Assembly: GCA_021788565.1 (NCBI GenBank)
Contig: JAJYKO010000025.1
Span: 1 to 17,112, forward strand
Source of the DNA: Chloroflexota bacterium
GTDB taxonomy: Bacteria > Chloroflexota > UBA6077
Direction of reading: 5' to 3'
DNA length: 17,112 bases
Shown here: positions 1-17,112 of the stretch, piece by piece
How the letters are laid out: each line of letters opens with the position of its first letter
Numbering within the stretch: the first letter of the stretch is position 1
Translations under genes and position numbers: made by a program
The notes under the pieces: model-generated
Database searches by the model: none
Seen by the model: only the letters and a program-made list of their open reading frames with translations
What the model was told of the DNA's origin: nothing

Positions 1-2
1 TG

Positions 3-182: not shown

Positions 183-224
183 GCACTCCTACATAGGTAA
201 TTCGTAGATTTGTGGGAACACTCC

Positions 225-252
225 CGTGGACATGCCCTCTGGCATGTCCACG
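225..252. terminator. Strong hairpin between two convergent genes, likely bidirectional terminator
   Basis: CGTGGACATGCC (225-236) and GGCATGTCCACG (241-252) form a perfect 12-bp stem with a CTCT loop. It lies 42 bases after the membrane-protein stop on the + strand and about 80 bases after the nuclease-like gene stop on the - strand, the expected place for a shared terminator. Neither side carries a clear T-tract, so it is not a textbook intrinsic terminator. It could instead stabilise the 3' ends. Confidence 0.55.
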
Positions 253-331
253 CCTGGCGGGCCTGAACACCATGATCGCTCGCGTTCAGCGCCCTAGACC
301 CGCTTTCTACGGTGCTGCAATGTCGATCTGC

Positions 332-1394: not shown

Positions 1395-1399
1395 TACAC

Positions 1400-1407
1400 T
1401 CCTCCTC
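1400..1407 (-). promoter_or_regulatory. Ribosome binding site deciding the TTG start of the microprotein
   Basis: On the minus strand the sequence reads GAGGAGG-AGTGTA-TTG. The AGGAGG core (complement of 1401-1406) is placed 6 bases before the TTG at 1392-1394. This is the main evidence that the 33-residue zinc-ribbon frame is translated. Confidence 0.6.
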
Positions 1408-1439
1408 GGAAAACGGCTGGCGCCATCCGGCCAGATGTT

Positions 1440-2708
1440 CTAGCAGTGAGTTCTTCCTTGGGCACCGAGATCTAACGAGAGCTGTCGCTTCTCTGCTTCT
1501 TTCGCCGCGTCAAACTCCTCATAGAGCTCTGGCAACCCCCGGAAAGCCTTCCTGGCGACTCTTACGAACTCGGGATCATTGAGCAGTTCATAAGTCACCC
1601 CTTTGTAAACTAGCGACACCTCCATGTGGTTCACAAGTCCGTTTCTAACGGTATTGAAGATGTCAGCTAATTCCCGTCGGAGCATTTGCTCCACGGCTCT
1701 TGAGTCCGGGCTCTTCCCCACGTACCTTACCCACCGGTCGGGCGGGCTAGTCGCCACAGCAGGCGCCAAAGCCCTAACCAAGGCCGACAAGTTGGTGTCG
1801 ATTTCCTTCTGGAGGTTTTCCTCAACCTGCTTACGGAATCGCACCACGAAGCGCCGAAGCGTCTTAACGGCAAGGTCAAAGTCGCCTTTGTTCTCCCGAA
1901 GTATCGCTGTCCCGTATCCTGGCAGAATCACCAAGAAACGACTGGCAATGTAGTCCTTGAGCTTCCGTACTCTTTCTCCGGAGAGTTCCTTGTTGCTGTC
2001 ACCGATTAAGCGGAAGGAACTCCGGAGCAGGTCCCTGGCTCTCTGGTCACGAGCAAGGCCCATGAGATCGCTGGGAATGGGAACAGTTTTCCGCGATATC
2101 ATGCAATTCTTGAGTCCGAACTCGACGAACTCGATACGTGAGTTGAACACACGTACCTTCCGGGCGACATCGAAAGGAACTGGAGGATTCCGCTGAAGAT
2201 CAGCAGCTAGGTCGCGAACCGTGGAAGGCGAAATGGCATCCATGCCGACGGTTCGTTCCGCAAGTCCATGCTCACATAGCCCCGTGCTCTTGGCCATATC
2301 ATCAGGAAGAGATCCTATCTGGATGGCGTTTGGGTGGATCTCTTGCTTCGTCCCCGCCTCGATCAGTTCAGGGATCGGTGCGAACACCAGCACCGCTTCG
2401 TCTGCGATGACGAGTCCGATTCTCACGCCTGGCTGATGGCAAAGAACCGCGTGTGACTGCTCAGCGGCCTGTTGCAGGTACTCAAGGCCTTCAATGGTGC
2501 CGTAGCCCAATCGGTACACCTCGGGATCAGCGTCAACCACCACGCTAACTGCGTGGAGACCCAAGGACGCCCATATTTCGCCGATCGCCTTGCCGACGTC
2601 TAACGAGACACCGGGCGACATGAAGAACACTCGGCTTCTTGCAGTGCGGAGGAATGAAATCAGGCCGACGTCATTTACGGTCGTGACCGTCGAAGACTCA
2701 AACGACAT
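1440..2708 (-). CDS. PLD-fold-like protein with a degenerate HKD motif
   Basis: A 422-residue protein. Residues 15-115 follow the plan of a phospholipase-D half: a strand-helix opening (LISFLRTARSRVFFMSPGVS), an alternating alpha/beta core, then VRIGLVIADEAVLVFAP. In that segment R96-x-G98-x4-D103 has exactly the H-x-K-x4-D spacing of the HKD motif, but His and Lys are replaced and only Asp is kept, so the usual phosphodiesterase chemistry should be lost. I see no second HKD. The rest (about 180-400) is helical and charged, with a long amphipathic stretch near 280-315, perhaps a coiled coil or DNA-binding arm. It starts with ATG at 2706-2708, preceded by GGAGAAGCACT. It leads the microprotein and nuclease genes. 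DISARM carries a PLD protein, DrmC, but I see no direct likeness beyond the fold. The function is unknown; a sensing or scaffold role is a guess. Confidence 0.65.
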   Translation of the reverse strand: MSFESSTVTTVNDVGLISFLRTARSRVFFMSPGVSLDVGKAIGEIWASLGLHAVSVVVDADPEVYRLGYGTIEGLEYLQQAAEQSHAVLCHQPGVRIGLVIADEAVLVFAPIPELIEAGTKQEIHPNAIQIGSLPDDMAKSTGLCEHGLAERTVGMDAISPSTVRDLAADLQRNPPVPFDVARKVRVFNSRIEFVEFGLKNCMISRKTVPIPSDLMGLARDQRARDLLRSSFRLIGDSNKELSGERVRKLKDYIASRFLVILPGYGTAILRENKGDFDLAVKTLRRFVVRFRKQVEENLQKEIDTNLSALVRALAPAVATSPPDRWVRYVGKSPDSRAVEQMLRRELADIFNTVRNGLVNHMEVSLVYKGVTYELLNDPEFVRVARKAFRGLPELYEEFDAAKEAEKRQLSLDLGAQGRTHC

Positions 2709-2913
2709 AGTGCTTCTCCATGAGGGCCGCTAAATCTAACCCAAGCGTGTGCACCTAGAAACGTGCTCGAATCGTGAGCGCCGCTGCTCAGAGTCTCAGG
2801 TACGTTCCATAGTCGGTAAGCCCAATGCCTCTTTCGATAAGTAGCTTCCCCTCGATCACACCTCCTGCGCGGAGTGCTGAACAAAAGGGTTGGTCGCAAG
2901 ATCGATTGGTGGA

Positions 2914-2939
2914 GGGTGGATACCCGTCCATATCCACCC
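2914..2939 (-). terminator. Hairpin after the DUF4234-like gene
   Basis: GGGTGGATA (2914-2922) and TATCCACCC (2931-2939) form a perfect 9-bp stem with an 8-base loop. The hairpin begins about 11 bases after the stop of the minus-strand membrane-protein gene. There is no T-tract, so the terminator call is tentative. The rest of the 242-base gap (2709-2950) shows no convincing gene and probably contains the promoter of the PLD-like gene. Confidence 0.4.
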
Positions 2940-2950
2940 AGCGCCAGTCC

Positions 2951-3601
2951 TCATGCGGATGCGATAGCAGAAGGTAGACGGTCCTCGAATGCCCACTGGT
3001 TCTCGAAGTGGCGATTGGGATCGGAGAGTATCCGGTAGTACCAGAAGATGCCCCAGATACCGATAGTCATGACGCTCGCCAGCAAGTTCAGCCAGTAGTG
3101 GCGCTCCGGCAGAACCGGGGAATATTGAATGAAGGTGGGCGCTCCCACCCTCTGGAGCACCTGGTTGGCCTTGTTCACAACATCCACCTGACGCTGTTCG
3201 TGCCAATAGAAGTCTACGGTCAGGAAATACCAGACGTAGAGCCCCGCGATGCCAGTCACTAGGCTCAAGATCAGCCAGAGCGCTGCCCCTTTGGCACCCT
3301 CTTGCTCGGCCTTCTGGCGTACGGCCGACTCGAGCGCCGCGACCTCCGGGAGGGAGTGAGGGTCAATACCTTTGGCCTGTACCCTCTCTTTGACAGCCTG
3401 CAGGAGGTTCAGGTTCATCGCGTTCTCTCGGCGAAGGTGCTCGTCGCGCCTCGAAATCAGCCTATACAGGACTACGATGCCCCAAATGCCGATGGTGATC
3501 AGCGGGAGAAGGATGGCATCCTTTAGAAAGTAAAGTCGGCGGTCGCTCTTCGACCGGGTGTTGATGTCTCCAGACATCATCGTCAACGCGTAGCTAGACA
3601 T
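2951..3601 (-). CDS. DUF4234-like integral membrane protein
   Basis: A 216-residue protein with three clear hydrophobic helices: about 30-49 (LLPLITIGIWGIVVLYRLI), about 105-127 (ALWLILSLVTGIAGLYVWYF) and about 166-190 (LLASVMTIGIWGIFWYYRI). The repeated TIGIWGI(F/V)xxYR signature in helices 1 and 3 is the mark of the DUF4234 family, small membrane proteins of unknown function. Residues 50-100 form a charged helical loop that may be a coiled coil. It starts with ATG at 3599-3601, with GGGGAGGAG placed 6 bases upstream. Another Met follows at residue 8, but the ribosome binding site favours the first. It is 242 bases from the PLD-like gene and separated from it by a hairpin, so it may be its own transcription unit. 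A membrane protein beside defence genes could be an effector, but this is only an inference from position. Confidence 0.7.
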   Translation of the reverse strand: MSSYALTMMSGDINTRSKSDRRLYFLKDAILLPLITIGIWGIVVLYRLISRRDEHLRRENAMNLNLLQAVKERVQAKGIDPHSLPEVAALESAVRQKAEQEGAKGAALWLILSLVTGIAGLYVWYFLTVDFYWHEQRQVDVVNKANQVLQRVGAPTFIQYSPVLPERHYWLNLLASVMTIGIWGIFWYYRILSDPNRHFENQWAFEDRLPSAIASA

Positions 3602-4351
3602 GTCTTGCTCCTCCCCAATACCGGCTCACGGCCGGGAAATTTGTCCGCCCGCCTGGAGGCTGACCCGTTGATACGTCCATACCCACTTGTTCCAGCAACT
3701 TCCGCGGCCCCACAACACGTGGTTTGCCCGGACGGGGGCAAAAGCGTGCCGATGATTTCGCAGGAATTGTTGTGAGCGGTCTGGCGGATATCGGGTACAG
3801 GATGGGCTGGCGGGGAGTGCTTCCCTGACAACCCCGGTCCCTCTCCTCTGGCGCCGTATACGGCGCGAGAAACCGAAGAGACAACCAGGTAGATCAACGT
3901 AGCCGCAGCGTACTACGGTTAACACGGCATATACAAGTGCCCTCGTCACCTCCGTAACAGAAGTTTTCTCAAGTTGGGTGAGTCCGCGTCACTGGCACCG
4001 CATGCAGGGCACTCTGCCGCGCATCCACCCTTGAATGGTGATGAGTGTCTGGGAGCACCTCTCATCTAGCATTAATTATCGGCAACAAAATCAGGCTTGA
4101 TTAGTGGCGGGAGGGCGGCCATCTCTGCTATCTCACTTCGCGTCTGAACTCATGTGGACAACGCACCCACTCGACCTTCATCTTAGTGCTATACTGGCGG
4201 CCGCAAGTGCATACAAGCACTGGGCCCTACGCGGTTCTCGGTTGCCATCCGGTCCGGCTCCATCAGGAACCTTCCATAATTCGGCTCGATCCTCGCCTCG
4301 TAACCTGACAACGCGCGACTACCCAGTCCCTGGGAACACCGGGAGCAGGCG
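3602..4351. other. 750-base intergenic region between divergent blocks
   Basis: No convincing gene is seen. Overlapping minus-strand frames near 3583-3949 and a plus-strand frame from 4104 lack family motifs and good ribosome binding sites. Structured elements are a 16-bp perfect palindrome (3851-3866) and a hairpin TTTGCCC/GGGCAAA (3723-3729 with 3736-3742). An AT-rich patch lies at about 4071-4105, and TATACT at about 4190 is a possible -10 box without a good -35. The region must drive both the minus-strand membrane gene and the plus-strand helicase operon, so it is the likely site of control. I see no tRNA or attachment site. Confidence 0.6.
3851..3866. repeat. Perfect 16-bp palindrome, possible operator
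   Basis: GCGCCGTATACGGCGC reads the same on both strands. It lies about 250 bases upstream of the divergent minus-strand membrane gene and about 485 bases upstream of the helicase start. A dyad of this length without a loop suits a dimeric regulator site better than a terminator. No regulator gene that would bind it is visible except the AbrB-type antitoxin further right. Confidence 0.35.
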
Positions 4352-7300
4352 ATGGACGTATTTACTCTTAGAGACAGGCTCATTCGGGAGTACCGCGAGT
4401 ACATTCGCGGCTTCGTCGCCATCAAGGAGCCAGTCGTCCGCCGGAAGGTGGAGGAGTACTTCGACGAGGGCTACCTCTGGCCGGAGCCGCTCGTGCAGCT
4501 CAACCCTGCCTTTCAACCAGGCCGCTGGGTCCACGAGCTGGTTGCCGAGAAGGTTCTCCATTCTGAGTGCGACACCGTATTCCGAAGGCGCGAGAACGAG
4601 ACCGACTTCGGCAAACCCATCCGCCTTCATCACCATCAGGAGCAGGCCCTCGCTGCCGCCGCAACGGGTAAGAGCTATGTCCTGACCACCGGCACCGGCT
4701 CCGGCAAGAGCCTCGCCTACTTCGTCCCCATCGTGGACCGCGTCCTTCGCAACGGCTCGGGCAAGGGGATCAAGGCCATCGTCATATACCCCATGAACGC
4801 TCTGTGCAACAGCCAGGAGGAGGCCCTGCGGCGCTTCCTGCAGTGGGGCCATCCCAACCTGAAGGGCCCGGTGACCTTCGCGAAGTACACGGGCCAGGAG
4901 GATCAGAAAACCCGGGATCGGATCAAGACCAACCCGCCCGATATTCTCCTGACGAACTTTGTCATGCTGGAACTGATCCTCACCCGCCGTGAGGAACTTG
5001 ATATCGTGGGCGCCGCCCAGGGCCTGGAGTTCCTGGTTCTGGACGAGCTTCACACCTACCGTGGGCGCCAGGGCGCCGACGTTGCCATGCTGGTCCGGCG
5101 GGTCCGGGATCGCTGTGGCGCGCCGACCATGCGGTGTGTGGGTACCAGCGCGACTCTCGCGGCGAGCGGCACTCGCGAGCAGCACCAGGCGGAGATAGCT
5201 CAGGTAGCTTCCCGCCTGTTCGGCACCGAAGTCCCCACGGAAAACGTCATAGGAGAGAGCCTCCAGCGGGCAACCGTAGGCGGGGCTGCTTCCCCAGATG
5301 ACCTCTCGCTCGCCCTGCAGATTTCGGCACCCTTTAGCGGTCTGCCCTATAAAGAGTTGGCCCGCAACCCGCTGGCGGTCTGGAGCGAGACGGCCTTCGG
5401 GCTGAAGGAAGACGAGCAAGGGCGCTTAGAGCGTCGTTCGCCGCGCACCCTCGGCGATGCTGCCCAGGAGTTGAGCGGAATCACCGGAGTCCACAGGCGG
5501 CGATGCGAGGAGCAGCTGCGCTCGCTCCTTATGGCCGGTTACCATGCCCGGCATCCCGAGACCGGTTTCCCGCTCTTCGCCTTCCGGCTCCACCAGTTCG
5601 TCAGCCGGGGAGACACGGTTTACGGCACTCCAGAGCCACCAGAGGAGCGCTATCTCAGCTTCGAGGGACAACAGTTCGTTCCTGGCGACCGTTCGCGGCG
5701 GCTCTACCCTATGGCTTTCTGTCGGGTTTGCGGGCAGGATCATCTGGTTGTTTCCCTGGTGGGCGAGCGACAGCTCGAACCGAGGAAACTCGACGAGGAA
5801 CCTGGTGGCGATGGTGTCGAAGGCGGCTACCTCGTGATCGCCGACGACAAGATGCCCAACCCCCTGGAGGACCCCTCGGTCCTGCCGGAGGATTGGACTG
5901 AAATCCGGAGGGGCGAGCTCGTCGTCCGCTCTTCGGCTCGCCACAATGTTCCCCGACCGGTGAGAGTGGCTCCCGACGGCCGTGTGCTTGGCGACATGGA
6001 AGAGGGCGGGAGCAAGGCTTGGTTTATGCCCGATCCCTTCCGCTTCTGCTTCGGCTGCGGCATCAACTACACCTCCGGCAGGGAGAAAGACTTCACCCGA
6101 CTGGCCGGACTTTCCTCCGAGGGTCGTAGCACCGCCACCACCATCATCTCGATGGCAATCGTCCGAGCCCTGAGGGAGGATAACAGCCTGCCGGACCGGG
6201 CGAGAAAGCTCCTCAGCTTCACCGATAACCGCCAGGACGCCTCGCTCCAGGCGGGCCACTTTAACGACTTCGTCCAGGTGACGCTCCTGCGCTCTGCCAT
6301 CCTCTCGGCCGTTGCCCAGGCTGGCGCGGATGGCCTGTCCCACGATGAGATCGCCCAGAAGGTAGTCAAGGCGATGGGCCTCGACCGCGAGGAGTACGCC
6401 TCGGACCCCGCCGCCGAGTTCTCCCGTCGCTCCCAGGACGAGGCGCTCAGGGAGGTCGCGGGCTACCTCGTTTACCACGACCTCCGCCGCGGCTGGCGGG
6501 TGACGTCCCCCAATCTGGAGCAAGTGGGGCTCCTCCACATCAGCTACGACGACCTGCCGGAGCTGTGTGCGGCCGACAAGTACTGGGCGGACCTCCATCC
6601 CGTCCTCGCCCAGGCCAGCCCCTCCGATCGGCAGTTCGTATGCCGGGCCCTCCTCAACCACCTCCGACGTGGCCTCGCGATCAAGGTCCAGTACCTGGAG
6701 CCGGAGTACCAGGAGCGCATTCGTCAGAGGAGCTACCAGTACCTGAAGGCCCCGTGGCGCTTCGAGGAAGCCGACAAGATGCGGGAGGCCAATGTCCTCC
6801 AGTTGGGCGGCGACAGGCAGTCCAGGAAAGACGACATTACCATCACTACGCGCTCACTCCTGGGGCGGTTCCTGAGGCGGGGCAGCAACTGGCCCGCGAC
6901 CGCCTTGCGTGGCCAGCAGGTGCCCGCCAACGAGCTGGACGCACTCGTCGCGGACCTGGTGAAGATGCTGGTGTTAGGGGGACACCTGGTTCAGGCAGAG
7001 GGAGTCAAGGGAGCTTACCAGCTCGACGCGGGGAAAATCCGCTGGCAGCTTGGTGATGGCACGGTCGAGCACGATCCCACACGCGTTTCGGGAAGGCCCG
7101 AGGGCGAGGTCGCCGTCAATCAGTTCTTCGCCCAGCTATACCACGTCGCCGCGTCTAACCTTCGGCAGCTCGAGGCCCGGGAACATACAGCCCAGGTTCC
7201 GGCCGCGGAACGCCAGGCCCGGGAGCACAGTTTCGGAGAGGCGAAGCTGCCCGTTCTCTACTGCTCCCCAACGATGGAGTTGGGAGTCGACATCCAGGAC

Positions 7301-9508
7301 CTCAACGCCGTCAACATGCGGAACGTGCCGCCGACCCCCGCCAACTACGCCCAGAGGAGCGGGCGGGCGGGTAGGAGCGGTCAGCCCGCGCTGGTCCTCA
7401 CCTACTGCACGTCCACGAGTCCGCACGACCAGTACTACTTCAGGCGCCCAGGCATGATGGTCGCGGGCGCCGTGGTTCCCCCAAGGCTCGATCTCGCCAA
7501 CGAGGAGCTGATCCAGGCTCACGTCCACGCAGTCTGGCTGGCGGAGACCGGCCAGCCGCTCTTCTCCGCTGTGAGCGACCTGCTCGATCTCTCCGATTCC
7601 GACCTGGCGATCAAGGCCGACGTACGGCACTACATCGACCAGAGCAGGTTCCAGGCATCCGCATTGAAGCGCTGCCTGAGTATCCTCGGGGCGATGTCCG
7701 GGGACATCGCCCCTACGAGTGCCCCCTGGTACACGTCGGACTGGCTCGAGAAGACGGTTCATAACGCCCCGAAGGCCCTGGACAGGGCCGCGGATCGGTG
7801 GCGGCACCTCTACCGCACGGCGAAGCTCCAGCAGCAGCTGCAGCACGACATCGTCGCCGATCCACTGCGGACGCAGGAGGACCGCAAGACCGCCCAGCGG
7901 CTCAGGGAAGAGGCGGAGACGCAGATCGAGCTTCTCACCCGTGGAAGACAGGATGTTTACTCCGACTTCTACAGCTACCGCTACTTCGCGACCGAAGGCT
8001 TTCTGCCCGGCTACAACTTCCCGCGCCTTCCGGTGACGGCCTACATCCCCGGCACGCGTAGGAAGAAGGGCGAGGAGGACTACATCAGCCGCGCCCGCTT
8101 CGTCGCCATCTCGGAGTTTGGCCCCCGCTCCATCGTCTACCACGAGGGGAACCGGTACAGGGTCAGCAGGGTGGTTCTTCCTCGGGAGGAAGCGGGAGGC
8201 AGGACACGTTCGGCTCAGTTCTGCCGGCTCTGCGGGTACGGGCACTTCGCCGAGCAGTTGAACGCCGACACTTGCGACCGCTGTGGCACGCCCCTCAACG
8301 CCTCGACGGCGCAGCGGTTCGACAGCCTCCTCAAGCTGGAGAGCGTCTCCACCTACCGGGTGGACCGGATCAGCTGCGACGAGGAGGAGCGGCTCCGGAT
8401 GGGCTACGAGGTGCGGACCATCTTTCGCTTCGCCACCAAAGACGACGGCTCCCCCTCGGTCCGGGAGGTCAGCTATCTCCTGGACGGTGAGCCGGTGGCG
8501 AAGGCCGCTTACGGACCATCCACCACGCTGTGGCGAGTCAATCTGGGATGGAACCGCCGAAAGGAGAAGAACCTCTACGGCTTCATGCTGGATATGGAGC
8601 GTGGCATCTGGAGCAAGATGGACGAGGAGCCGGACGCGGCTATCGAGGAGCCAGACCCGCTGGCGAGCCCCGCCTCGCCAAAACAGAGGGTCATCCCCTT
8701 CGTGGAGGACCACAGAAACGCCCTGTTGTTCAAGCTTGAGCAGAGCGAGGACGTGGAGACCATGCTGAGTCTGATGTACGCGTTGAAGCGCGGCATCGAA
8801 GCCCGGTACCAGCTGGAGGATTCGGAACTGGCCTGCGAGCCGCTGCCGGATGCGCAAACCCCCCGGTCCCTGCTCTTCTACGAGGCCGCCGAGGGCGGGG
8901 CGGGAGTGCTCGTCCGGCTCGCCGAGGAGCCGGGTGCCCTTGCGGCGGTAGCGCGTGAGGCTCTTGCCGTCTGCCATTTCGATCCCGATGATGGCAGCGA
9001 CCGTGGCAAGGCCGAGCGGGCGACGGAGGAGTGCGAGGCTGCCTGCTACGACTGCCTTCTCTCCTACAGCAACCAGAGGCATTACCAAATGCTCGACCGC
9101 AAGCTGCTGCCGGAACTGCTGCTCGAGCTGTCGCGCTCCATGGCCGAGGTGGGCGCTGGGGGAACCGGGCGAGAGTCTCAGCTCGAGGTGCTGCTCCGCC
9201 GCTGCGAGTCGGACCTGGAGCGGGATTTCGTGAACTGGCTGAACTCCCGGGGACTTCGCCTCCCGGACGTCGCCCAGGCCCACATCGAAGGGATGGCCGT
9301 CCGCCCGGACTTCCTGTACGAAGGCGAGATGACCTGCGTCTATGTCGACGGTGAGCCGCACCGGTTTCCAGAGCGCCAGGCACGAGATGCAGCAGCAAAC
9401 GCCGCCCTTGCTAACGCGGGGTGGACCGTCGTGCGCGTCCAGGGACCGGAGAGCTGGCCAACCGCGGCGGAGAAGCATGTGTGGCTGTTCGGCGTGCTAA
9501 AGATGTGA
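4352..9508 (+). CDS. YprA-type DEAD helicase with DUF1998 region and C-terminal Vsr-like nuclease
   Basis: A 1718-residue ATP-dependent superfamily 2 helicase. Motifs in order: Q-like motif (LHHHQEQAL, 92-100), Walker A (TTGTGSGKS, 112-120), DELH (231-234), SATLA (266-270), LSFTDNRQDASLQAGHF (about 620-635), CSPTMELGVDI (971-981) and QRSGRAGRSGQ (1001-1011). Two CxxC pairs (C457/C460, C566/C569) probably form one split zinc site. A second ribbon starts at C1291 (CRLCGYGHF, then CDRCGTPL). The DUF1998 region carries YEAAEGGAGVL (about 1510-1520) and CEAACYDC (1561-1568). Residues about 1605-1715 resemble Vsr/DUF559 nucleases: RPDFLY with D1653, YVDGEPH with D1666 and H1670, and GWTVVRV. YprA (MrfA) relatives are the core of DISARM, Druantia and Dpd; fused helicase-DUF1998 length fits Druantia-like forms better than DrmA plus DrmB. 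GGGAG precedes the ATG. It leads the plus-strand operon. Confidence 0.85.
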   Translation: MDVFTLRDRLIREYREYIRGFVAIKEPVVRRKVEEYFDEGYLWPEPLVQLNPAFQPGRWVHELVAEKVLHSECDTVFRRRENETDFGKPIRLHHHQEQALAAAATGKSYVLTTGTGSGKSLAYFVPIVDRVLRNGSGKGIKAIVIYPMNALCNSQEEALRRFLQWGHPNLKGPVTFAKYTGQEDQKTRDRIKTNPPDILLTNFVMLELILTRREELDIVGAAQGLEFLVLDELHTYRGRQGADVAMLVRRVRDRCGAPTMRCVGTSATLAASGTREQHQAEIAQVASRLFGTEVPTENVIGESLQRATVGGAASPDDLSLALQISAPFSGLPYKELARNPLAVWSETAFGLKEDEQGRLERRSPRTLGDAAQELSGITGVHRRRCEEQLRSLLMAGYHARHPETGFPLFAFRLHQFVSRGDTVYGTPEPPEERYLSFEGQQFVPGDRSRRLYPMAFCRVCGQDHLVVSLVGERQLEPRKLDEEPGGDGVEGGYLVIADDKMPNPLEDPSVLPEDWTEIRRGELVVRSSARHNVPRPVRVAPDGRVLGDMEEGGSKAWFMPDPFRFCFGCGINYTSGREKDFTRLAGLSSEGRSTATTIISMAIVRALREDNSLPDRARKLLSFTDNRQDASLQAGHFNDFVQVTLLRSAILSAVAQAGADGLSHDEIAQKVVKAMGLDREEYASDPAAEFSRRSQDEALREVAGYLVYHDLRRGWRVTSPNLEQVGLLHISYDDLPELCAADKYWADLHPVLAQASPSDRQFVCRALLNHLRRGLAIKVQYLEPEYQERIRQRSYQYLKAPWRFEEADKMREANVLQLGGDRQSRKDDITITTRSLLGRFLRRGSNWPATALRGQQVPANELDALVADLVKMLVLGGHLVQAEGVKGAYQLDAGKIRWQLGDGTVEHDPTRVSGRPEGEVAVNQFFAQLYHVAASNLRQLEAREHTAQVPAAERQAREHSFGEAKLPVLYCSPTMELGVDIQDLNAVNMRNVPPTPANYAQRSGRAGRSGQPALVLTYCTSTSPHDQYYFRRPGMMVAGAVVPPRLDLANEELIQAHVHAVWLAETGQPLFSAVSDLLDLSDSDLAIKADVRHYIDQSRFQASALKRCLSILGAMSGDIAPTSAPWYTSDWLEKTVHNAPKALDRAADRWRHLYRTAKLQQQLQHDIVADPLRTQEDRKTAQRLREEAETQIELLTRGRQDVYSDFYSYRYFATEGFLPGYNFPRLPVTAYIPGTRRKKGEEDYISRARFVAISEFGPRSIVYHEGNRYRVSRVVLPREEAGGRTRSAQFCRLCGYGHFAEQLNADTCDRCGTPLNASTAQRFDSLLKLESVSTYRVDRISCDEEERLRMGYEVRTIFRFATKDDGSPSVREVSYLLDGEPVAKAAYGPSTTLWRVNLGWNRRKEKNLYGFMLDMERGIWSKMDEEPDAAIEEPDPLASPASPKQRVIPFVEDHRNALLFKLEQSEDVETMLSLMYALKRGIEARYQLEDSELACEPLPDAQTPRSLLFYEAAEGGAGVLVRLAEEPGALAAVAREALAVCHFDPDDGSDRGKAERATEECEAACYDCLLSYSNQRHYQMLDRKLLPELLLELSRSMAEVGAGGTGRESQLEVLLRRCESDLERDFVNWLNSRGLRLPDVAQAHIEGMAVRPDFLYEGEMTCVYVDGEPHRFPERQARDAAANAALANAGWTVVRVQGPESWPTAAEKHVWLFGVLKM

Positions 9509-9539
9509 CCACACCCAACGAGCCGGCCATGCCTGGGCG

Positions 9540-9613
9540 CGCACGGCGCATATAGCTATAAGTAGCTCCATCTGATATGCTTGTCGCAGCATCGAGCATG
9601 GAGGGTCCGAGAC
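9540..9613 (+). promoter_or_regulatory. Gap before the toxin-antitoxin pair with palindrome, possible internal promoter/operator
   Basis: The 105-base gap between helicase stop and antitoxin start contains the perfect 10-bp palindrome TATAGCTATA (9551-9560) in an AT-rich island within very GC-rich DNA. AbrB-family antitoxins commonly bind AT-rich dyads to repress their own genes, so this is a plausible autoregulatory site and internal promoter. I could not match a good -35/-10 pair. GGAGGG, 8 bases before the ATG at 9614, is the antitoxin ribosome binding site. Confidence 0.35.
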
Positions 9614-9943
9614 ATGGCAGAGTCTGCGAAGTCAGAGCGCGAGACCGAAGGAGAGCGGATCAGGCGGAGGCTGAAGAGGTCTGGGGGCTCGGAGGCAGTG
9701 GTTCTGCCCAAGCCGTGGCTCCAGCGACTCGGGGTCGAGAACGAGGTGGACCTCGTGGAGCGCGAGGGGGGCATTCTGGTGCTGCCTGTGAAGCGGGAGC
9801 AGAGTATCGAGGATGAGCCGGAATTCGCCCTGTTCCTCGATTTCATGATGAAGAAGGCTCTCCTACGTCCCGAAGAGTTGGTGAACGTCGCGGAGATGAC
9901 GGCCGAAGATGAAGAGCTGGTACGTAACGTTCGGACTGAGTAG
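9614..9943 (+). CDS. prlF: PrlF-like AbrB-family antitoxin
   Basis: A 109-residue protein. Residues 18-59 are a swapped-hairpin AbrB/MazE-type DNA-binding domain: RRLKRSGGSEAVVLPKPWL, then LGVENEVDLVEREGGILVLPV. Residues about 67-109 form an acidic helical tail (EFALFLDFMMKKALLRPEEL) like the toxin-binding tail of PrlF/SohA antitoxins. PrlF neutralises the RNase YhaV, and the complex represses its own operon. I chose the ATG at 9614 because GGAGGG lies 8 bases upstream; a TTG at 9581 would add 11 residues (MSQHRAWRVRD) without a good ribosome binding site. The stop is 3 bases before the toxin ATG, the classic antitoxin-toxin order. The identity of the pair is strengthened by the clear YhaV neighbour. 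Confidence 0.8.
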   Translation: MAESAKSERETEGERIRRRLKRSGGSEAVVLPKPWLQRLGVENEVDLVEREGGILVLPVKREQSIEDEPEFALFLDFMMKKALLRPEELVNVAEMTAEDEELVRNVRTE

Positions 9944-9946
9944 CTT

Positions 9947-10432
9947 ATGTCGTTCGAGTTCGGCTCCAGGAGTCCCGCGCTCATCAACGGCTGGCTGGTC
10001 CTTGCTCTGCCAGAGGTGGAGCGACGCTACGCCGAGATTCGTCGCCGGGTGGTGGAGCTACGGGGTAGGCTCGCCGAAGAGGACTACGTCCAGCACCCTA
10101 CCTTGAAGCTGTTCGCGTCGGTACGGCGACTGCTGACGAGCACCATCCCAGCCGACCCTGACGCTCCGGAGTTCAAGCTCGAAGGCAGCCTGAGCAAGTT
10201 CCGTCGCGCCAAGAAACATGGGCTTCCTCCCCGTTACCGGCTGTTCTGGGTGTTCTCCAGCAGGCTGAGGGTAATCATCGTCCTGTACCTGAACGACGAG
10301 ACGACCCTCCGAAAAGAGGGCGCCAGGAGCGATCCGTACAGAGTCTTCCAGCGGATGATCGATCGGGGAGAGGTCGGAGCGGACTTCGAGGCGAATCTGC
10401 GGTTGTGGCGAAAGGCCCAACCATCTGCTTAG
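9947..10432 (+). CDS. yhaV: YhaV-type ribonuclease toxin
   Basis: A 161-residue protein close to the usual YhaV length (about 154 in E. coli). The family signature is clear: PTLKLFASVRRL (51-62), KFRRAKKHGLPPRYRLFWVF (84-103) and a C-terminal block, LNDETTLRKEGARSDPYRVF (115-134), then RMIDRG. YhaV is a RelE-superfamily RNase that cleaves mRNA, and growth arrest is prevented by PrlF. The basic residues around 84-97 and R122 in LRKEG are the likely RNA-contact or catalytic region; I cannot assign single catalytic residues with certainty. It starts with ATG 3 bases after the antitoxin stop and ends 48 bases before drmD. The pair is placed inside the defence operon, so its dose is probably tied to the operon's expression. 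No truncation is seen. Confidence 0.85.
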   Translation: MSFEFGSRSPALINGWLVLALPEVERRYAEIRRRVVELRGRLAEEDYVQHPTLKLFASVRRLLTSTIPADPDAPEFKLEGSLSKFRRAKKHGLPPRYRLFWVFSSRLRVIIVLYLNDETTLRKEGARSDPYRVFQRMIDRGEVGADFEANLRLWRKAQPSA

Positions 10433-10480
10433 CGCTCCGAAAGCAACCTGCTTCCTATAGAGGAGTTGGGGGTTTAGATA

Positions 10481-13321
10481 ATGACCGTCGCCGCTCCCGA
10501 GTTTTCCATAGGCTCCATGGTCCGCGCCAGGGGACGCGAGTGGGTGGTCCTGCCATCGGATGACCCGCAGATGCTGCGGCTCCGGCCGCTCGGCGGTACC
10601 GACGAGGATGCCTGCGGCCTCTACCTGCCCCTCGAGGGCGATGCCGTGGAGTCGGCCAGTCTCCCGCCGCCCGACCCTCGCTACGCGGGCAACACGGCCG
10701 CGGCGACCCTGTTACGTGACGCCGTCCGTCTTGGCTTCCGCTCGGGCGCGGGCCCTCTGCGCTCCCTGGCCCGGGTCGCCGTGGAGCCCCGTCCCTACCA
10801 GCTCGTGCCGCTCCTCATGGCTCTCCGCCTCGACCCAGTGCGGCTGCTGATAGCCGACGACGTCGGGATCGGCAAGACCATCGAGGCCGCCATGATCGCC
10901 AGGGAGCTGCTGGACCGCGGCGAGATTAGCCGCTTATGCGTCCTCTGCCCGCCTCACCTGTGCGAGCAGTGGCGGAAGGAGCTCGAGCTGAAGTTCCATC
11001 TGCCCGCCGTGGAGGTGCGCCCGGGCACGGTCACGGCTCTGGAGCGAGACCTTCCTCTGAACCGCTCCCTCTTCGAGGAGTACCCCGTCACGGTTGTGTC
11101 CATCGACTTCATCAAGAGCGACCGGAGACGTGCTCGTTTCCTGCAGACCTGCCCGGAGTTCGTCATAGTGGACGAAGCCCACTCGGCCGCGCAGGGGCGA
11201 TCCGGAGGTGTTGCCCAGCAGCAGCGCCACCATCTGCTCGACGATCTCGCCGCCGATCCGTCTCGCCATCTGCTGCTGGTCACCGCCACGCCGCACTCCG
11301 GCGACGAGGAGGCGTTCGCCTCCCTCGTGGGCCTGCTGGTGCCGGAGCTTCAAGAGAAGGTGGCCCAGCTGGAGTTCGGCTCCGGAACCCAGGCACGAGA
11401 GCGCCTGGCACAACACTTCGTCCAGCGCCGCAGGGCGGATATCGAGACCTACCTGAAGGCTTCCACGGTTTTCCCAGCGCGAGAGTCCAGGGAGCAGCCC
11501 TACCGCCTGAGTCCGGAGTACAAGCGGCTCCTGGAGGCCACGCGTTCCTACACGCGAGACCTGGTGGAAGCCTCCACAGGCATGTCCAGATTCCACCAGC
11601 GGGTTCGGTGGTGGGCCGCGCTGGCCCTCCTGCGCTGCGTCGGCTCCAGCCCCGCCGCGGCTGCCGCGGCGCTCCGCACACGCGCAGCCCAGCCCGAGAC
11701 CCAGGACATCGCCGAGGCAGACCGCCTGGGCCAGGACTCGGTCTTCGACCTGGTTGCGAGGGACGAGGCTGAGCAGGACGACTCCACCCCCGGTGTCGAT
11801 CTGGAGGAAGGCGACGACGCGGCCCCTTCCTCGGAGAGGCGAAGGCTGCTTGCCCTTGCGCGCCAGGCGCAGGAGTTGATCGGCAGGAACGACCCCAAGC
11901 TGGAGACCGCGGCTCGGCTGGTCAAGGAGCTTGTGGCGGACGGCTTCAACCCCATCGTTTTCTGCCGCTACATCGCGACGGCTCACTACGTCGGCGAGGA
12001 ACTCGGGAAGCGGCTCCAAGGGGTGGCAGTCAGGGTGGTGACTGGCGAGTTGCCCGCCGAAGACAGGGCTGATCGAGTCCAATCGCTCTCCTCCGAGCCG
12101 AAGAGGGTGCTGGTCGCCACCGACTGCCTGTCCGAGGGGGTAAATCTGCAGGAGCACTTCGACGCTGTGCTCCACTACGATATGTCCTGGAACCCCACGC
12201 GCCACGAGCAGCGGGAGGGCCGGGTCGACAGGTACGGTCAGCCCAGCCCCAGGGTCCGCACCGTCCTCCTGTTCGGGCAGGACAACCCGGTGGACGGGGT
12301 GGTGCTGAAGGTGCTGCTTCGCAAGGCCGAGACGATCCGGAAGACGCTCGGCGTAAGCGTGCCGGTGCCGGTGGACACCAACGCGGTGCTGGAGGCGCTG
12401 TTCGAGGCGCTGATGCAGCGCTCCGACGTCCCCCCCGAGCAACTCTCCCTCTTCTTCGACGACGAGGAGGAGATGGTGAACCGGGCCTGGGACGAGGCGG
12501 CCAACCGCGACAAACGAAACCGCGCGATCTTCGCCCAGCACGGCATAAGGCAGGAAGAGGTGGCGGCTGAGTTGGAGGCGGCCACCCGAGCAGTCGGCTC
12601 GTCCTCAGACGTTCGGCGTTTCATCCTCCAGGCCTGCGCCGACCTCGGCGTGCCGTTGTCCCAGGAAGGCAAGGGACTCCGGATAGACCTTGCTCACCTG
12701 CCCGCGGCCGCGCTCTCGCGTGCGGACCTCGCTCCCCGGAACGGGCCGTCGCTAGTCACCTTCGAGCTCCCCACGCCGCAGGGGGCAATCTACATACCTC
12801 GCACCCACCCCCTTGTCGAGGCGCTGGCGGGGCTGATCGTTGACACCGCTCTCACGGAGCCGGAGACCTCCCGGGCGAAGCGCTGTGGGGCGATGCGCAC
12901 GCGGGATGTCGCCATGCGCACCATCCTACTGCTGCTCCGCGCCCGCTTTCTGATCGAGGAGACACGCGGCGGAGAACCGTACCCGATGCTCGCCGAGGAG
13001 TGTCTCCTCACCGCCTTCCAGGGAGACCCGGCTGACCCGGTGTGGCTTTCCTCGGAAGATGCTGAGCTGCTCGCGATCTCGGTACCCAGTGCGAACCTGC
13101 CTCCGGGTCAGGCCCAACTGTGGATACAGCAGGTCCTGGACGCCCGGAGCGTCTTCGAGCTGCGTCTTGCCGAGCTTGCGCGGGGGAGGGCGGACGAGCT
13201 TCTTGCTGCCCACCGAAGGGTGCGCGCCGCCGCCCAGATCAAGGGGGTTCGCTACCGCGTCCAGCCCCACCAGGAGGTCGACCTTCTCGGCCTCTACGTT
13301 CTCATGCCCGACCGGCGATGA
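10481..13321 (+). CDS. drmD: DISARM-type SNF2 helicase DrmD
   Basis: A 946-residue SNF2/RapA-like superfamily 2 ATPase. An N-terminal beta-rich segment (10-60, SIGSMVRARGREWVVLPSDD) precedes the motor. Motifs: ADDVGIGKTIEAA (125-137, Walker A), DEAH (231-234), TATPHSGDEEAF (268-279), VATDCLSEGVNLQ (545-557) and QREGRVDRYGQ (577-587). The two lobes are split by an acidic, low-complexity insertion at about 400-455. The C-terminal 350 residues are helical, with no nuclease motif seen. In DISARM, DrmD is the large SNF2 protein of class 1 systems and works with the DrmA-DrmB complex and a methyltransferase. It is probably a DNA translocase; it may not unwind. ATG at 10481 follows a G-rich stretch (GAGGAGTTGGGGG), with wider spacing than elsewhere. 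It lies between the toxin and a 151-base gap before the methyltransferase. Confidence 0.85.
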   Translation: MTVAAPEFSIGSMVRARGREWVVLPSDDPQMLRLRPLGGTDEDACGLYLPLEGDAVESASLPPPDPRYAGNTAAATLLRDAVRLGFRSGAGPLRSLARVAVEPRPYQLVPLLMALRLDPVRLLIADDVGIGKTIEAAMIARELLDRGEISRLCVLCPPHLCEQWRKELELKFHLPAVEVRPGTVTALERDLPLNRSLFEEYPVTVVSIDFIKSDRRRARFLQTCPEFVIVDEAHSAAQGRSGGVAQQQRHHLLDDLAADPSRHLLLVTATPHSGDEEAFASLVGLLVPELQEKVAQLEFGSGTQARERLAQHFVQRRRADIETYLKASTVFPARESREQPYRLSPEYKRLLEATRSYTRDLVEASTGMSRFHQRVRWWAALALLRCVGSSPAAAAAALRTRAAQPETQDIAEADRLGQDSVFDLVARDEAEQDDSTPGVDLEEGDDAAPSSERRRLLALARQAQELIGRNDPKLETAARLVKELVADGFNPIVFCRYIATAHYVGEELGKRLQGVAVRVVTGELPAEDRADRVQSLSSEPKRVLVATDCLSEGVNLQEHFDAVLHYDMSWNPTRHEQREGRVDRYGQPSPRVRTVLLFGQDNPVDGVVLKVLLRKAETIRKTLGVSVPVPVDTNAVLEALFEALMQRSDVPPEQLSLFFDDEEEMVNRAWDEAANRDKRNRAIFAQHGIRQEEVAAELEAATRAVGSSSDVRRFILQACADLGVPLSQEGKGLRIDLAHLPAAALSRADLAPRNGPSLVTFELPTPQGAIYIPRTHPLVEALAGLIVDTALTEPETSRAKRCGAMRTRDVAMRTILLLLRARFLIEETRGGEPYPMLAEECLLTAFQGDPADPVWLSSEDAELLAISVPSANLPPGQAQLWIQQVLDARSVFELRLAELARGRADELLAAHRRVRAAAQIKGVRYRVQPHQEVDLLGLYVLMPDRR

Positions 13322-13346
13322 AGGGTGAAGGGAGAATCACACGCCA

Positions 13347-13425
13347 GCCCCGAAGGGGCGGACCATGTCAGCCCAGAGCAACGCTCTGGGTAAAGGACAT
13401 TGGATCGGACAAGCCCTGAAAGGGC
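13347..13425 (+). repeat. Three-hairpin intergenic repeat element
   Basis: Three successive perfect hairpins lie in the gap between drmD and the methyltransferase gene. They are GCCCC-GAA-GGGGC (13347-13359), CCCAGAGC-AAC-GCTCTGGG (13372-13390) and GCCCT-GAA-AGGGC (13413-13425). All have three-base loops. The composite (AGCCCCGAAGGGGCGG, then AGCCC...GGGT, then AAGCCCTGAAAGGGCG) resembles a dispersed palindromic repeat family I recall from large GC-rich bacterial genomes. It could trim or stabilise the transcript between the two genes. Confidence 0.6.
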
Positions 13426-13444
13426 GACCCAGCGCGAACCAAAA

Positions 13445-13465
13445 TGGCTGTTAGCTGATAACTGA
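13445..13465 (+). repeat. Degenerate heptamer repeat before the methyltransferase start
   Basis: Three consecutive 7-base units, TGGCTGT, TAGCTGA and TAACTGA, lie just before the GAGG ribosome binding site. Similar TAGCTGA heptamers occur as short tandem repeats in many genomes. A change of copy number would change the leader length but not the coding frame. Confidence 0.35.
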
Positions 13466-13472
13466 GGACTCC

Positions 13473-16400
13473 ATGAATACCGAGTTCACTACCGTCCGCA
13501 CCGAGGGAGGACTCCTCCCTCCAGACCTGCTGCACAGGATAGCGGCGGCCGACCCTGACCTCGGCGGCTTCGACCCCGAGAAGTACGGCCTCCAGCAGGG
13601 CGACCGGGTCGGCGAGGCCGCCTCTCGCGCCTGGGCGCGGGCGAAGAACTACTGGGCGGCCTTCCGCTCGGCCACGGAAGAGTTGCCGGAGGGCGAGAGC
13701 GGCCTCACGCAGACCCGGGCACAGTGGCTCCAGCCGCTGCTACGGGAGTTGGGCTACCGTGAGCTGCAGTACGACGCCGCGGGCGAGGTGATCGACGAGC
13801 GCCGCTTCCCCCGTTACTACCGCTCGGGGCCGGTCCCGCTGCACGTCCTCACCCTGCGCCAAAAGCTGGACAGTTCCCTCCCTAGCAGCTCGGGCCAGCG
13901 TCGGGGTAATCCTCACGCCCTGATGCAGGAGTACCTCAACCTCTCCGATGCCACCTACGGCATCGTCTCCAACGGCCTCCAGCTCCGCTTGCTGCTGGAC
14001 ACCGCCTCCCTCACCCGCCAGGCGTACGTAGAGTTCGACCTCCAGGCGATGATGGAGGGCGGCGTCTATGCCGACTTCGTCCTGCTCTACCTGGTGCTCC
14101 ACCGTTCTCGCCTTCCGCAGAAGACCGAGGAGGCCGGCCAGTCGTGGCTGGAATTGTGGAGGGCCAGGGCCGAGTCCCAGGGGGCGAGGGCGCTGGGAGA
14201 GCTCCGGCACGGCGTCGAGGAGGCGATCAAGGCCCTGGGGAACGGCTTTCTGGCGCACCCGGCGAACGATGCACTTCGTCAGCGCCTCAGGTCCGGCGAC
14301 ATGTCGGTCCAGGACTACTACCAGGAACTGCTGCGGCTCATCTACCGGCTGATCTTTCTGTTCGTCGCGGAAGAGCGGAGCCTGCTCTTCCCATCGGACG
14401 CCGACGCAACAGACAGGCGCCGCTACATGGAGAACTACTCCGCCTCGCGGCTCCGCGACCTCGCCCGCAAGTACCTGACGGATGATCGCCACGACGACCT
14501 GTGGAGGACGCTGCGTATCACCTTCGGCCTGCTCTCGGGCGAGAAAGATGGGATGAGCGTCCCGGCGCTGGGCGGAGGGCTCTTCGACGAAGAGTCATGC
14601 CCGAACCTGGACGGCTGCCATCTCCGAAACGATGCCCTGGCCGAGGCCGTCCGCCGGCTCTCCTGGGTGCGCATCGGCCGTGTCACCCGACGTGTCAACT
14701 ACCGCGAGATGGACGCGGAGGAGCTCGGCGGCGTCTACGAGGGTCTGCTGGAACAGCAACCCCAGATGGTGGCGGATGCCGCGCTGCCCCGCTTCGAGCT
14801 TGTGGGTAGCGGTGAACGCAAACAGACAGGCAGCTACTACACACCGACCTCCGTGGTGCAGGAACTCATCAAGTTGGTCCTCGAGCCGACTTTGGTCGCC
14901 CGCTTGAAGGGCAAGAAGACTCCTCACGAGAAGCGAGAGACAATCCTGAACATCACGGTCTGCGACCCGGCCTGTGGCAGTGGGCACTTCCTTCTCGCGG
15001 CAGCACGACGACTTGCCCAAGAACTCGCCCATATCGACGCTGGAGACACCGAGCCGTCGCCTCCTCAGGTACGCTCGGCTTTGCGAGATGCTATTTCCCA
15101 CTGCATCTACGGCGTGGACCTCAATCCCCTGGCGGTAGACCTGTGCAGGCTTGCCCTTTGGTTGGACGGCCACGATCCGGGGCGTCCTCTCACCTTCTTG
15201 GATGCTCATGTGAAGCTTGGAAACAGCCTGGTGGGAGCCACCGCTGAGTTGGTCAAGGGCGGAATACCAGATGAGGCCTTTGATCCTATAGGCGACGACG
15301 ATAAGAGGATATCTAGCATCGTCAAGAAGCGGAACAAACAGGAGCAGAGGCAGTACTCGTTGTTTGCCGCCGACCCCGCCGTCTGGGAAAGCATGAGAGA
15401 CGACTTGGCGATCGAGGCACTGGAGATAACTGATTTGCCGGAGGACCGAGCCACTCAAGTGGCGGAGCAGAGGGAGCGGTATAGGTCCTTCAGACGGGAG
15501 AGAGTTGACCCGGTGATGGCCCCACTGGATGCGTGGACCGCGGCATTCTTTTGGCCCCTGACCTCCGAATCGCCAGAACCGCCGACGACGGGGGTGCTGG
15601 ATTCCGCGAGACCTGGTCTTCCGCCCGTTCTCTCTGCCGGGCAACAGCGGGAGGTGGCACGGCTGCGGCTGAAGCACCGATTCTTCCACTGGCCCCTCGA
15701 GTTTCCGGAAGTCTTCGCCGATGGCGGGTTCGACGTGGTGCTCGGGAATCCTCCGTGGGACACGCTTAGTCCTGACGTCAAGGAGTTCTTCGCTATATAC
15801 GAGCCCGCAGTGCGTTTCCAGTCACCGGAGGATCAACGCCGATTGGTCGACGCCCTGCTGGAGAACCCTCTGATTTCTGCACGATGGCAAGAACATACAC
15901 GGACGCTGTATTCGACCGTCAAGTTCATCAAACAGAGCGGTAGGTACCGTCTCTTTGCCCCTGGAAATCTGGGCAAGGGAGACTTCAATGTGTACCGTAT
16001 GTTCGTGGAGGCTGCCCTGGCGAGTGCGCGAACCGGCGGCTGGGCCGCGCAGGTCGTGCCAGAAGGGCTCTACAACGGCGCGAATGCCATGGCAATCCGG
16101 GAGGCCTTGTTTGAGAAGTCCTCGCTCGCCGTCATTCTCGGCTTCGAAAACACGAAGGAAGTCTGGTTCAAGGATATTGATAGCCGCACGAAGTTCTGCG
16201 TGTACGCTGCCCAGGTGATTGGGCGCACAGAGGCCTTTAGAACTGCGTTCGGCATTCGGTCTGTGGATCAGTTAAGGGCGGCTGTGGCTGGGGAAACGCT
16301 GCTCCTGCCAGTGAACCTCGTGCATGAGTTCTCTCCAGATGCCCTGGCTATCATGGAACTGTCCAGTCAACTCGAGGTCGACATCGCGACAAAGGTGTAT

Positions 16401-17081
16401 GCTCGATGGCCCAAGTTTGGTGACGAGTCGGCTGGGGAACCGCTAAGGCACTACATGCGGGAAATCGATATGGGGAACGATCGCGATCTGTTCTCTGAGA
16501 CCCCACCCGGGCTTCCAGTGTATGAAGGAAGGATGGTAGGGCAATTTGACCATCGTGCGAAAGGTTATCAGTCAGGCCGGGAACGGTCTGCCGACTGGCT
16601 TGATTTCCCGTTTGGAAGCGCGCAGAAGGCGATCTTGCCGCAGTGGTACATACCCGTAGACAAGGTTCCAGAGAAGACCAAGGACAGAGTGAAGCGATTT
16701 CGAATAGGTTTCTGCGATGTGGCAAGTCCAACCAACGAACGTTCCCTAATCGCTTCCCTAATCCCGCCTGACAGCATTTGTGGACACAAGACTCCCACCA
16801 TCACATTCGAACCGGGGTGTGAGTGGTACTACCTGGTCTGGCTAGCTGTGGCCAATTCCATGACAATGGATTTCATTGCACGAAAAAAAGTGAGCCTCAC
16901 AATGTCCTACACCCTCCTCGATAGCCTTCCGTTTCCAAGGCTCAAGGCGAGCGATCCGGTGGTTGAGCGAATTGCCCCGCTGGTCCTAAGTGGTGCATCC
17001 GGCAAGTCTAGGCAACTTTCGCCAACTGTGCGATGCCTGGCTGGCGACGTGGCCGATGGCGCCGTCGCTGACCCCATATGA
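13473..17081 (+). CDS. N6-adenine DNA methyltransferase, DISARM DrmMI / PglX-like
   Basis: A 1202-residue protein. The N-terminal part (about 80-330) carries QWLQPLLRELGY, VSNGLQLRLLL and YVEFDLQAMMEGG, the pattern found at the start of Eco57I-type enzymes; I see no complete nuclease site, so it is probably a methylase only. The methylase core begins at TGSYYTP (452-458), with the AdoMet loop DPACGSGHFLLAAARRL (498-514) and the catalytic NPPW (759-762), which specify amino (N6-adenine) methylation of the gamma class. The C-terminal 400 residues should include the target recognition domain. Large enzymes of this kind mark self DNA in DISARM (DrmMI) and BREX (PglX). GAGG lies 5 bases before the ATG. 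Base composition drops from about 65% GC in the N-terminal half to about 50-57% after roughly 14850. The last 30 or so residues look unlike the expected end of the family. Confidence 0.85.
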   Translation: MNTEFTTVRTEGGLLPPDLLHRIAAADPDLGGFDPEKYGLQQGDRVGEAASRAWARAKNYWAAFRSATEELPEGESGLTQTRAQWLQPLLRELGYRELQYDAAGEVIDERRFPRYYRSGPVPLHVLTLRQKLDSSLPSSSGQRRGNPHALMQEYLNLSDATYGIVSNGLQLRLLLDTASLTRQAYVEFDLQAMMEGGVYADFVLLYLVLHRSRLPQKTEEAGQSWLELWRARAESQGARALGELRHGVEEAIKALGNGFLAHPANDALRQRLRSGDMSVQDYYQELLRLIYRLIFLFVAEERSLLFPSDADATDRRRYMENYSASRLRDLARKYLTDDRHDDLWRTLRITFGLLSGEKDGMSVPALGGGLFDEESCPNLDGCHLRNDALAEAVRRLSWVRIGRVTRRVNYREMDAEELGGVYEGLLEQQPQMVADAALPRFELVGSGERKQTGSYYTPTSVVQELIKLVLEPTLVARLKGKKTPHEKRETILNITVCDPACGSGHFLLAAARRLAQELAHIDAGDTEPSPPQVRSALRDAISHCIYGVDLNPLAVDLCRLALWLDGHDPGRPLTFLDAHVKLGNSLVGATAELVKGGIPDEAFDPIGDDDKRISSIVKKRNKQEQRQYSLFAADPAVWESMRDDLAIEALEITDLPEDRATQVAEQRERYRSFRRERVDPVMAPLDAWTAAFFWPLTSESPEPPTTGVLDSARPGLPPVLSAGQQREVARLRLKHRFFHWPLEFPEVFADGGFDVVLGNPPWDTLSPDVKEFFAIYEPAVRFQSPEDQRRLVDALLENPLISARWQEHTRTLYSTVKFIKQSGRYRLFAPGNLGKGDFNVYRMFVEAALASARTGGWAAQVVPEGLYNGANAMAIREALFEKSSLAVILGFENTKEVWFKDIDSRTKFCVYAAQVIGRTEAFRTAFGIRSVDQLRAAVAGETLLLPVNLVHEFSPDALAIMELSSQLEVDIATKVYARWPKFGDESAGEPLRHYMREIDMGNDRDLFSETPPGLPVYEGRMVGQFDHRAKGYQSGRERSADWLDFPFGSAQKAILPQWYIPVDKVPEKTKDRVKRFRIGFCDVASPTNERSLIASLIPPDSICGHKTPTITFEPGCEWYYLVWLAVANSMTMDFIARKKVSLTMSYTLLDSLPFPRLKASDPVVERIAPLVLSGASGKSRQLSPTVRCLAGDVADGAVADPI

Positions 17082-17091
17082 AAGGATGTCG

Positions 17092-17112
17092 ATGGGCATT
17101 CCAGTAAGCTGT
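17092..17112 (+). CDS. Possible start of a further gene (partial)
   Basis: An ATG at 17092 follows AAAGGA (17081-17086) with a 5-base gap and opens a frame (MGIPVSC) that runs off the right edge. An alternative ATG is at 17086 in the same frame. The start lies 11 bases after the methyltransferase stop, so the operon may continue. The same frame is open leftwards to a TAA at about 17000, so an overlapping start (GTG at about 17002) or a frameshifted methyltransferase end is also possible. Seven residues do not allow a family call. Confidence 0.3.

Follow-up and report, generated by a model that had tools for sequence, protein, structure and literature searches.

To which class of defence system does an operon belong that combines a YprA-type helicase, a DrmD-type SNF2 helicase, and a large N6-adenine methyltransferase? 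The question is raised by a stretch of 17,112 nucleotides from a Chloroflexota bacterium (assembly GCA_021788565.1, contig JAJYKO010000025.1, positions 1 to 17,112), referred to here in its full length as the window. The open reading frame (ORF) list of the window places five plus-strand genes at 4352-17081, which encode, in this order, a helicase, an antitoxin, a toxin, an SNF2 helicase, and a methyltransferase. A first-pass annotation of the bare sequence had proposed a new intermediate class between DISARM and Druantia, while noting that ARMADA had recently been put forward for such loci and that the class might not be new. This last caution was justified, as the locus is not a new intermediate class. 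Rather, it is very likely an ARMADA Type I system, with a PrlF-YhaV toxin-antitoxin (TA) pair inserted at the ArmC-ArmA junction. Its core is ordinary for this recently described class, and only the toxin cassette, seen once, is unusual. ARMADA was defined in a preprint by Bell et al. 2025 (PMC12458937).

The features of the operon are as follows:

4352..9508, plus strand: YprA-type helicase (ArmC-like), 1718 residues (ORF, Pfam, tree)
4634..5161, plus strand: RecA1/DEAD domain of the helicase, with the motifs TGTGSGKS and DELH (PF00270, E 9.4e-27)
7163..7381, plus strand: Helicase_C/RecA2 domain of the helicase (PF00271, E 5.7e-12)
8771..9058, plus strand: MZB/DUF1998 zinc-binding domain of the helicase chain (PF09369, E 1.4e-10, above cut-off)
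9131..9505, plus strand: probable Vsr-like PD-(D/E)xK nuclease domain at the helicase C-terminus (fold model)
9509..9613, plus strand: 105-bp intergenic stretch 5' of the antitoxin gene, candidate TA operator (small palindromes seen by eye)
9614..9943, plus strand: PrlF/MazE-like antitoxin, 109 residues from the ATG at 9614 (PF04014, E 2.6e-7)
9947..10432, plus strand: YhaV toxin, 161 residues, RelE-superfamily (BECR) fold by model (PF11663, E 2.1e-34)
10481..13321, plus strand: BrxHII/DrmD-type SNF2 helicase (ArmA-like), 946 residues (Pfam SNF2 and Helicase_C, PADLOC, NCBIfam)
13473..17081, plus strand: PglX/DrmMI-like N6-adenine methyltransferase (ArmB-like), 1202 residues, C-terminus probably not natural (Pfam, PADLOC, motifs)

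The three-gene core and its relatives

The helicase core and the DUF1998 domain reside on a single chain of 1718 residues, in which Pfam places a DEAD domain at residues 95-270, a Helicase_C domain at 938-1010, and an MZB domain at 1474-1569, all above cut-off. The frame is full length and its motifs are intact; the residues of TGTGSGKS and DELH are invariant across an alignment of seven rows, and the eight nearest full-length helicases, one of which (P0003) carries the organism name Chloroflexi, share 60-68% identity with the window helicase; L007 shares 63%. The SNF2 protein also has a full-length frame with intact motifs, and its Pfam SNF2 and Helicase_C matches are above cut-off, as are the Eco57I and N6_Mtase matches of the methyltransferase, which carries the motifs DPACGSGHF and NPPW. 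On the nature and position of these three proteins, the first-pass annotation was correct. A PADLOC model named for DpdE scored 730 bits on the SNF2 protein; a DpdE identity was discarded as a naming effect of this model, with NCBIfam DpdE at 180 against a cut-off of 500.

In ARMADA Type I, a YprA homolog generally comes first, followed by a BrxHII-like helicase and then by a PglX-like methyltransferase, and the ARMADA helicases end in a predicted active Vsr-type nuclease (PMC12458937). The same three-gene order and the fused DUF1998 domain are found in the window, and the C-terminus of its helicase was modelled as a Vsr-like PD-(D/E)xK domain. By this model, the helicase itself probably carries, as a fused Vsr-like domain, the nuclease that DISARM keeps in the separate protein DrmC. 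The first-pass annotation had noted that DrmC was not seen, and PADLOC indeed found none among the eight window proteins scanned, in a window that stops 31 bp past the methyltransferase stop codon; the nuclease as such, however, is probably not missing. What sets the window apart from ARMADA Type I is the PrlF-YhaV pair between the first two genes. The fit to this type follows from the gene order, the fusion of helicase and DUF1998, the probable fusion of the nuclease, and the placement of the helicase in a tree.

In this quick maximum-likelihood tree of 57 rows, which carried long-branch warnings and had no DruE of types I and II among its rows, the window helicase fell inside a 41-row ARMADA-I-like clade (SH-like approximate likelihood ratio test support of 99), where it was nested with P0002, P0003, P0005, and P0008 (support of 100). 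Outside the clade were five ARMADA II rows, recognised by an adjoining ArmD-like gene, as well as three DruE, two unassigned, four YprA, one DpdJ, and one DrmA row. The helicase did not group with DrmA; of the two outcomes that would have refuted the first-pass annotation, a place in the DrmA clade and a lack of conserved linkage, neither was observed. As DrmA and DpdJ form very long branches, the tree does not resolve the position between DruE and DrmA for which the first-pass annotation had looked, but the conserved drmD and methyltransferase neighbours that it had expected along with this position were found.

The layout of these genes was scanned in 161 loci (L001-L092, L123-L190, and the window) from plasmids, one genome per species, viral contigs, and Chloroflexota genomes, using profiles of the helicase, SNF2, and methyltransferase proteins. 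L093-L122 were omitted, as each of them except L098 duplicated a place already covered, and six weaker or second helicase places in Chloroflexota genomes were not included as separate loci. Merging of three duplicates at 97% identity gave 158 non-redundant loci. A single-sequence scan of the genome contigs returned no relative, while a query with an alignment recovered them; the relatives from this query are the best 80 of 558, a sample that leans to close relatives.

The helicase gene was followed by an SNF2 gene on the same strand in 110 of the 158 loci, the window included, indicating that the linkage of these genes is beyond chance. Within the sequence covered, 95 of these 110 loci had the methyltransferase gene as well. 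An SNF2 or methyltransferase gene lay upstream instead in 12 loci, an order that has been reported for many archaea and cyanobacteria (PMC12458937). The other 36 had no same-strand SNF2 gene in the sequence covered, 21 of them with less than 1 kb left; an SNF2 gene on the opposite strand was present in L033 and L136. At most 200 bp separated the helicase and SNF2 genes in 94 of the 110 loci, and the distance was 1 and 8 bp in L123 and L124, which are close relatives (distances were counted from whichever start codon came first in an ORF, which makes small values approximate). The helicase was matched at E 1e-80 in 65 of 400 Chloroflexota genomes. The long match spans of L009, L011, and L021 were considered as insertions in the helicase and dropped, as the ORFs were of normal length. 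On a Nocardioides plasmid (L001), a single 31-kb stretch includes an ARMADA-I operon as well as drmA-drmB and a McrBC-like pair, and in a Chloroflexota locus (L151), SNF2 and methyltransferase matches flanked both sides of a helicase split in two frames.

ARMADA Type II has the three core gene families in common with the window, and has in addition ArmD, in which a GajB-like helicase is joined to a RelE-like RNase domain (PMC12458937). Its gene order differs, with SNF2, methyltransferase, helicase, and ArmD following each other; all four were present in three of five references (L245, L248, and L249, with the SNF2 gene cut by the edge of the stretch in L245 and L248), and the last three genes were visible in L247 and L261. 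The Type II helicases are also longer (2101-2134 residues) and form a separate clade in the tree, and ArmD-like profiles had no match in the window.

The toxin-antitoxin pair between helicase and SNF2 genes

In the window, the helicase-SNF2 gap measures 972 bp; it contains prlF-yhaV and, ahead of the pair, a 105-bp leader in which no sigma-70-like match was found (9509-9613). The gene for the YhaV-family toxin (PF11663) starts 3 nt past that for the AbrB/MazE-type antitoxin (PF04014), and both matches are above cut-off; the antitoxin ORF is listed from a TTG at 9581, with an ATG at 9614. As in PrlF-YhaV of Escherichia coli, a toxin of the YhaV family is directly preceded by an antitoxin of MazE/AbrB type, but the pair of the window sits inside a defence operon. 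The first-pass annotation had placed the three core genes in one operon; they are not contiguous, as the antitoxin and toxin genes separate the first from the second. It had also suggested that the gene content might be a variant. The embedded pair is such a variation, although it had been overlooked.

YhaV was not found in any of the other 160 of the 161 loci with a profile built from 29 homologs, nor was any ARMADA gene found near YhaV in 24 other YhaV loci (12 from Chloroflexota, with short flanks, and 12 viral). With this one antitoxin as the query, an antitoxin relative was found to precede YhaV in 3 of the 24. PF11663 matched in 7 of 400 Chloroflexota genomes, in 5 of them above cut-off, and two of the seven (G137 and G336) also encode an ARMADA helicase, on other contigs. 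Given the absence of YhaV from the relatives scanned and the junctions of 1 and 8 bp in L123 and L124, prlF-yhaV looks like an independent module that entered the operon once and recently. Neither YhaV nor MazE is mentioned in the main text of PMC12458937, and no account of ARMADA together with YhaV was found in the literature listings searched, in one of them among 12 of 243 entries. A literature search for CreTA-type guarding gave no account either.

Most likely, and in our view probably, the pair is an addiction module or a passenger. Less likely is a function in the defence itself, as a working arm: if the core fails or senses a phage, the antitoxin would be lost and YhaV would halt translation, the role that the RelE-like domain of ArmD may have in Type II. 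Three observations speak for such an arm. The modelled fold of YhaV belongs to the RelE superfamily; ArmD of Type II, according to the preprint, combines a RelE-like domain with a GajB-like helicase in one protein; and ArmD-like genes occur in ARMADA-I operons. Four loci (L022, L026, L052, and L072) have one in the same slot between helicase and SNF2 genes, and in Mycobacterium sp. shizuoka-1 (L075, 22128-24218), one follows the methyltransferase gene. The ArmD-like proteins of the four loci are of UvrD type, and their N-termini align with those of the proteins beside Type II helicases. The helicases of these four loci end in a different tail.

Against a defence arm stands that PrlF-YhaV was seen in this slot in a single instance, and that YhaV showed no significant similarity to the ArmD-like N-termini when profiles were compared (E 0.26). 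As Pfam RelE had no match in the ArmD-like proteins of L022 or L075, the RelE label of these N-termini comes from the preprint only. The helicases of the four loci form one clade, with a weak support of 0.547 in a tree of 147 helicases from which 11 short ones had been removed, so they may represent one event. In six of fifteen other gapped loci, no convincing gene was seen in the gap. Moreover, the pair of the window has its own leader, as expected of an independent TA module, and in the tested ARMADA II, where all four genes are required, the defence is non-abortive (PMC12458937).

A broader proposal is that the helicase-SNF2 gap of ARMADA Type I is a slot for accessory effectors, entered more than once by RNases of the RelE superfamily, namely ArmD-like proteins in one clade and PrlF-YhaV here. 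This would provide a fallback in which translation stops and the cell is killed or halted if the attack on DNA fails. We regard this proposal as doubtful. The junction is usually tight, and sometimes holds GmrSD, an ArmD-like gene, a weak PLD match, or SIR2.

Various other genes were observed at inner junctions of relatives. Effector-type genes in ARMADA-I operons included GmrSD (L035), a weak PLD match (L059), and REase-ARP (L066), and proteins of PD-(D/E)XK_3 type were encoded between SNF2 and methyltransferase genes in L182 (Pfam match) and, similar by eye, in L156 and L177. L187, from Chloroflexota, contains, in this order, a methyltransferase, a weakly matching helicase, and an ArmD-like gene, and looks Type II-like. 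Five loci (L242, L243, L244, L246, and L260) encode ArmD-like proteins with no ARMADA helicase, SNF2, or methyltransferase profile match in the stretch covered. The L052 ArmD-like protein was matched at E 1e-40 in 16 of 249 genomes of the phylum sample to which these loci belong.

Integrity of the operon and competing assignments

Towards the end of the window, the normal C-terminus of the methyltransferase seems to be lost from the frame. In alignments to four of its best full-length relatives, the matches to L003, L011, and L034 end at residues 1167-1172 out of 1202, and L035 aligns weakly to residue 1201. Past a shared PFPR motif, 46 residues follow in the window versus 118-308 in these relatives (72 to 262 more). 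A frameshift, a truncation, or a misassembly may account for this. In the ARMADA-I operon on a plasmid of Deinococcus radiodurans MP1 (L004), the methyltransferase gene is distributed over several frames, and a transposase gene separates its last pieces.

Together with the TA insertion, which splits an otherwise tight junction, this departure from the relatives might indicate a decaying defence operon that no longer works. Such decay is improbable, however, in view of the full-length helicase and SNF2 frames and their intact motifs. The window moreover ends 31 bp on, and the L035 protein can be aligned, if weakly, almost to the last residue. Assembly errors are common near contig ends.

Several points weigh against the assignment to ARMADA Type I or parts of it. 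With a methyltransferase end that seems to be frameshifted or rearranged, this copy may be inactive or the contig may contain an error, and the sequence covered ends at 17112. The evidence for the nuclease domain was graded moderate: a Foldseek search with the domain gave no match at E <=0.001, with mitoribosomal proteins as the top rows, and the nuclease motif pattern was unmatched in the tails of 47 of 102 relatives. The clade labels of the tree are our own, derived from profile matches and gene order rather than from sequences of the preprint. Finally, the activity tests of ARMADA concern Type II, and no Type I activity was found reported in the accessible text (PMC12458937).

What speaks for Druantia is that, among PADLOC models, those of DruE score highest on the helicase (367.7 bits for DruE3), with DrmA models at 46 bits at most. 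The PADLOC-DB of 2023 is older than ARMADA, so DruE would simply be the nearest name available in it. Druantia III resembles the window in its long YprA-type helicase with a C-terminal nuclease, but it is very improbable that the locus is a Druantia whose DruE helicase happens to adjoin an SNF2-methyltransferase pair. On two of the three DruE rows of the tree, the DruE3 model scored 2361 and 2381 bits over the full length (about 2370 bits), versus 368 on the window helicase, which the tree separates from the DruE3 rows. In many loci, the SNF2 and methyltransferase genes recur as conserved neighbours, while Druantia III consists of DruE and DruH only and has PLD domains instead of a Vsr-like domain (PMC13192584), and models of Druantia partners had no match among the eight window proteins scanned. 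A literature search for the combination of DrmD and DruE gave no account. Least credible is a class 1 DISARM with fused drmA and drmB: its DrmD-type SNF2 helicase and DrmMI-type methyltransferase are matched here (268 and 243 bits in PADLOC), but DISARM separates the DrmA helicase from the DrmB DUF1998 protein and typically has a PLD nuclease, DrmC (PMC12458937), where the nuclease of the window is probably fused, and the helicase scores far lower with DrmA than with DruE3 models, lies apart from DrmA in the tree, and, like the SNF2 protein, stays below the NCBIfam cut-offs (DrmA 19.9 versus 950 bits, DrmD 310 versus 610 bits).

To the left of the operon, three genes were annotated:

332-1309, minus strand: DUF6946 protein (Pfam)
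1440-2708, minus strand: 422-residue uncharacterised protein (ORF)
2951-3601, minus strand: DUF4234 protein (Pfam)

The 422-residue protein belongs to a widespread uncharacterised family, with at least 251 homologs at E <=0.001 and named members in Chloroflexi, Geobacter, Verrucomicrobiaceae, and Planctomycetaceae; it had no Pfam, PADLOC, NCBIfam, or PHROGs match. In a test of whether the three neighbours accompany ARMADA, none was matched at E 1e-5 in the ARMADA loci covered. A rerun at E 1 gave one row each for the 422-residue (E 0.59) and DUF6946 (E 0.99) proteins, versus 170 rows for SNF2 as a positive control.

Proposed mechanism and significance

The high confidence stated above applies to the identity of the locus as ARMADA Type I with an inserted TA pair, and not to the single steps of a mechanism. 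By analogy with its relative DruE, which cuts long DNA and loads where DNA has single-stranded 3' parts (PMC13192584), the ArmC-like helicase would load on infection-associated DNA. The SNF2 protein may translocate along this DNA or remodel it, and the methyltransferase may mark host DNA or license the attack; if ARMADA II is a guide, both would be needed. The fused Vsr-like domain would then cut phage DNA without killing the cell, making the defence non-abortive, as in Type II. Should the level of antitoxin fall, YhaV would cleave mRNA on the ribosome, by which the cassette may prevent loss of the operon, unless it is a passenger.

The locus adds a member to ARMADA Type I that carries an embedded TA pair. 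If the slot between helicase and SNF2 genes is functional, it would show a way for a non-abortive defence to acquire an abortive fallback. If it is not, the locus provides a tidy case of a TA pair hitchhiking in a defence operon.

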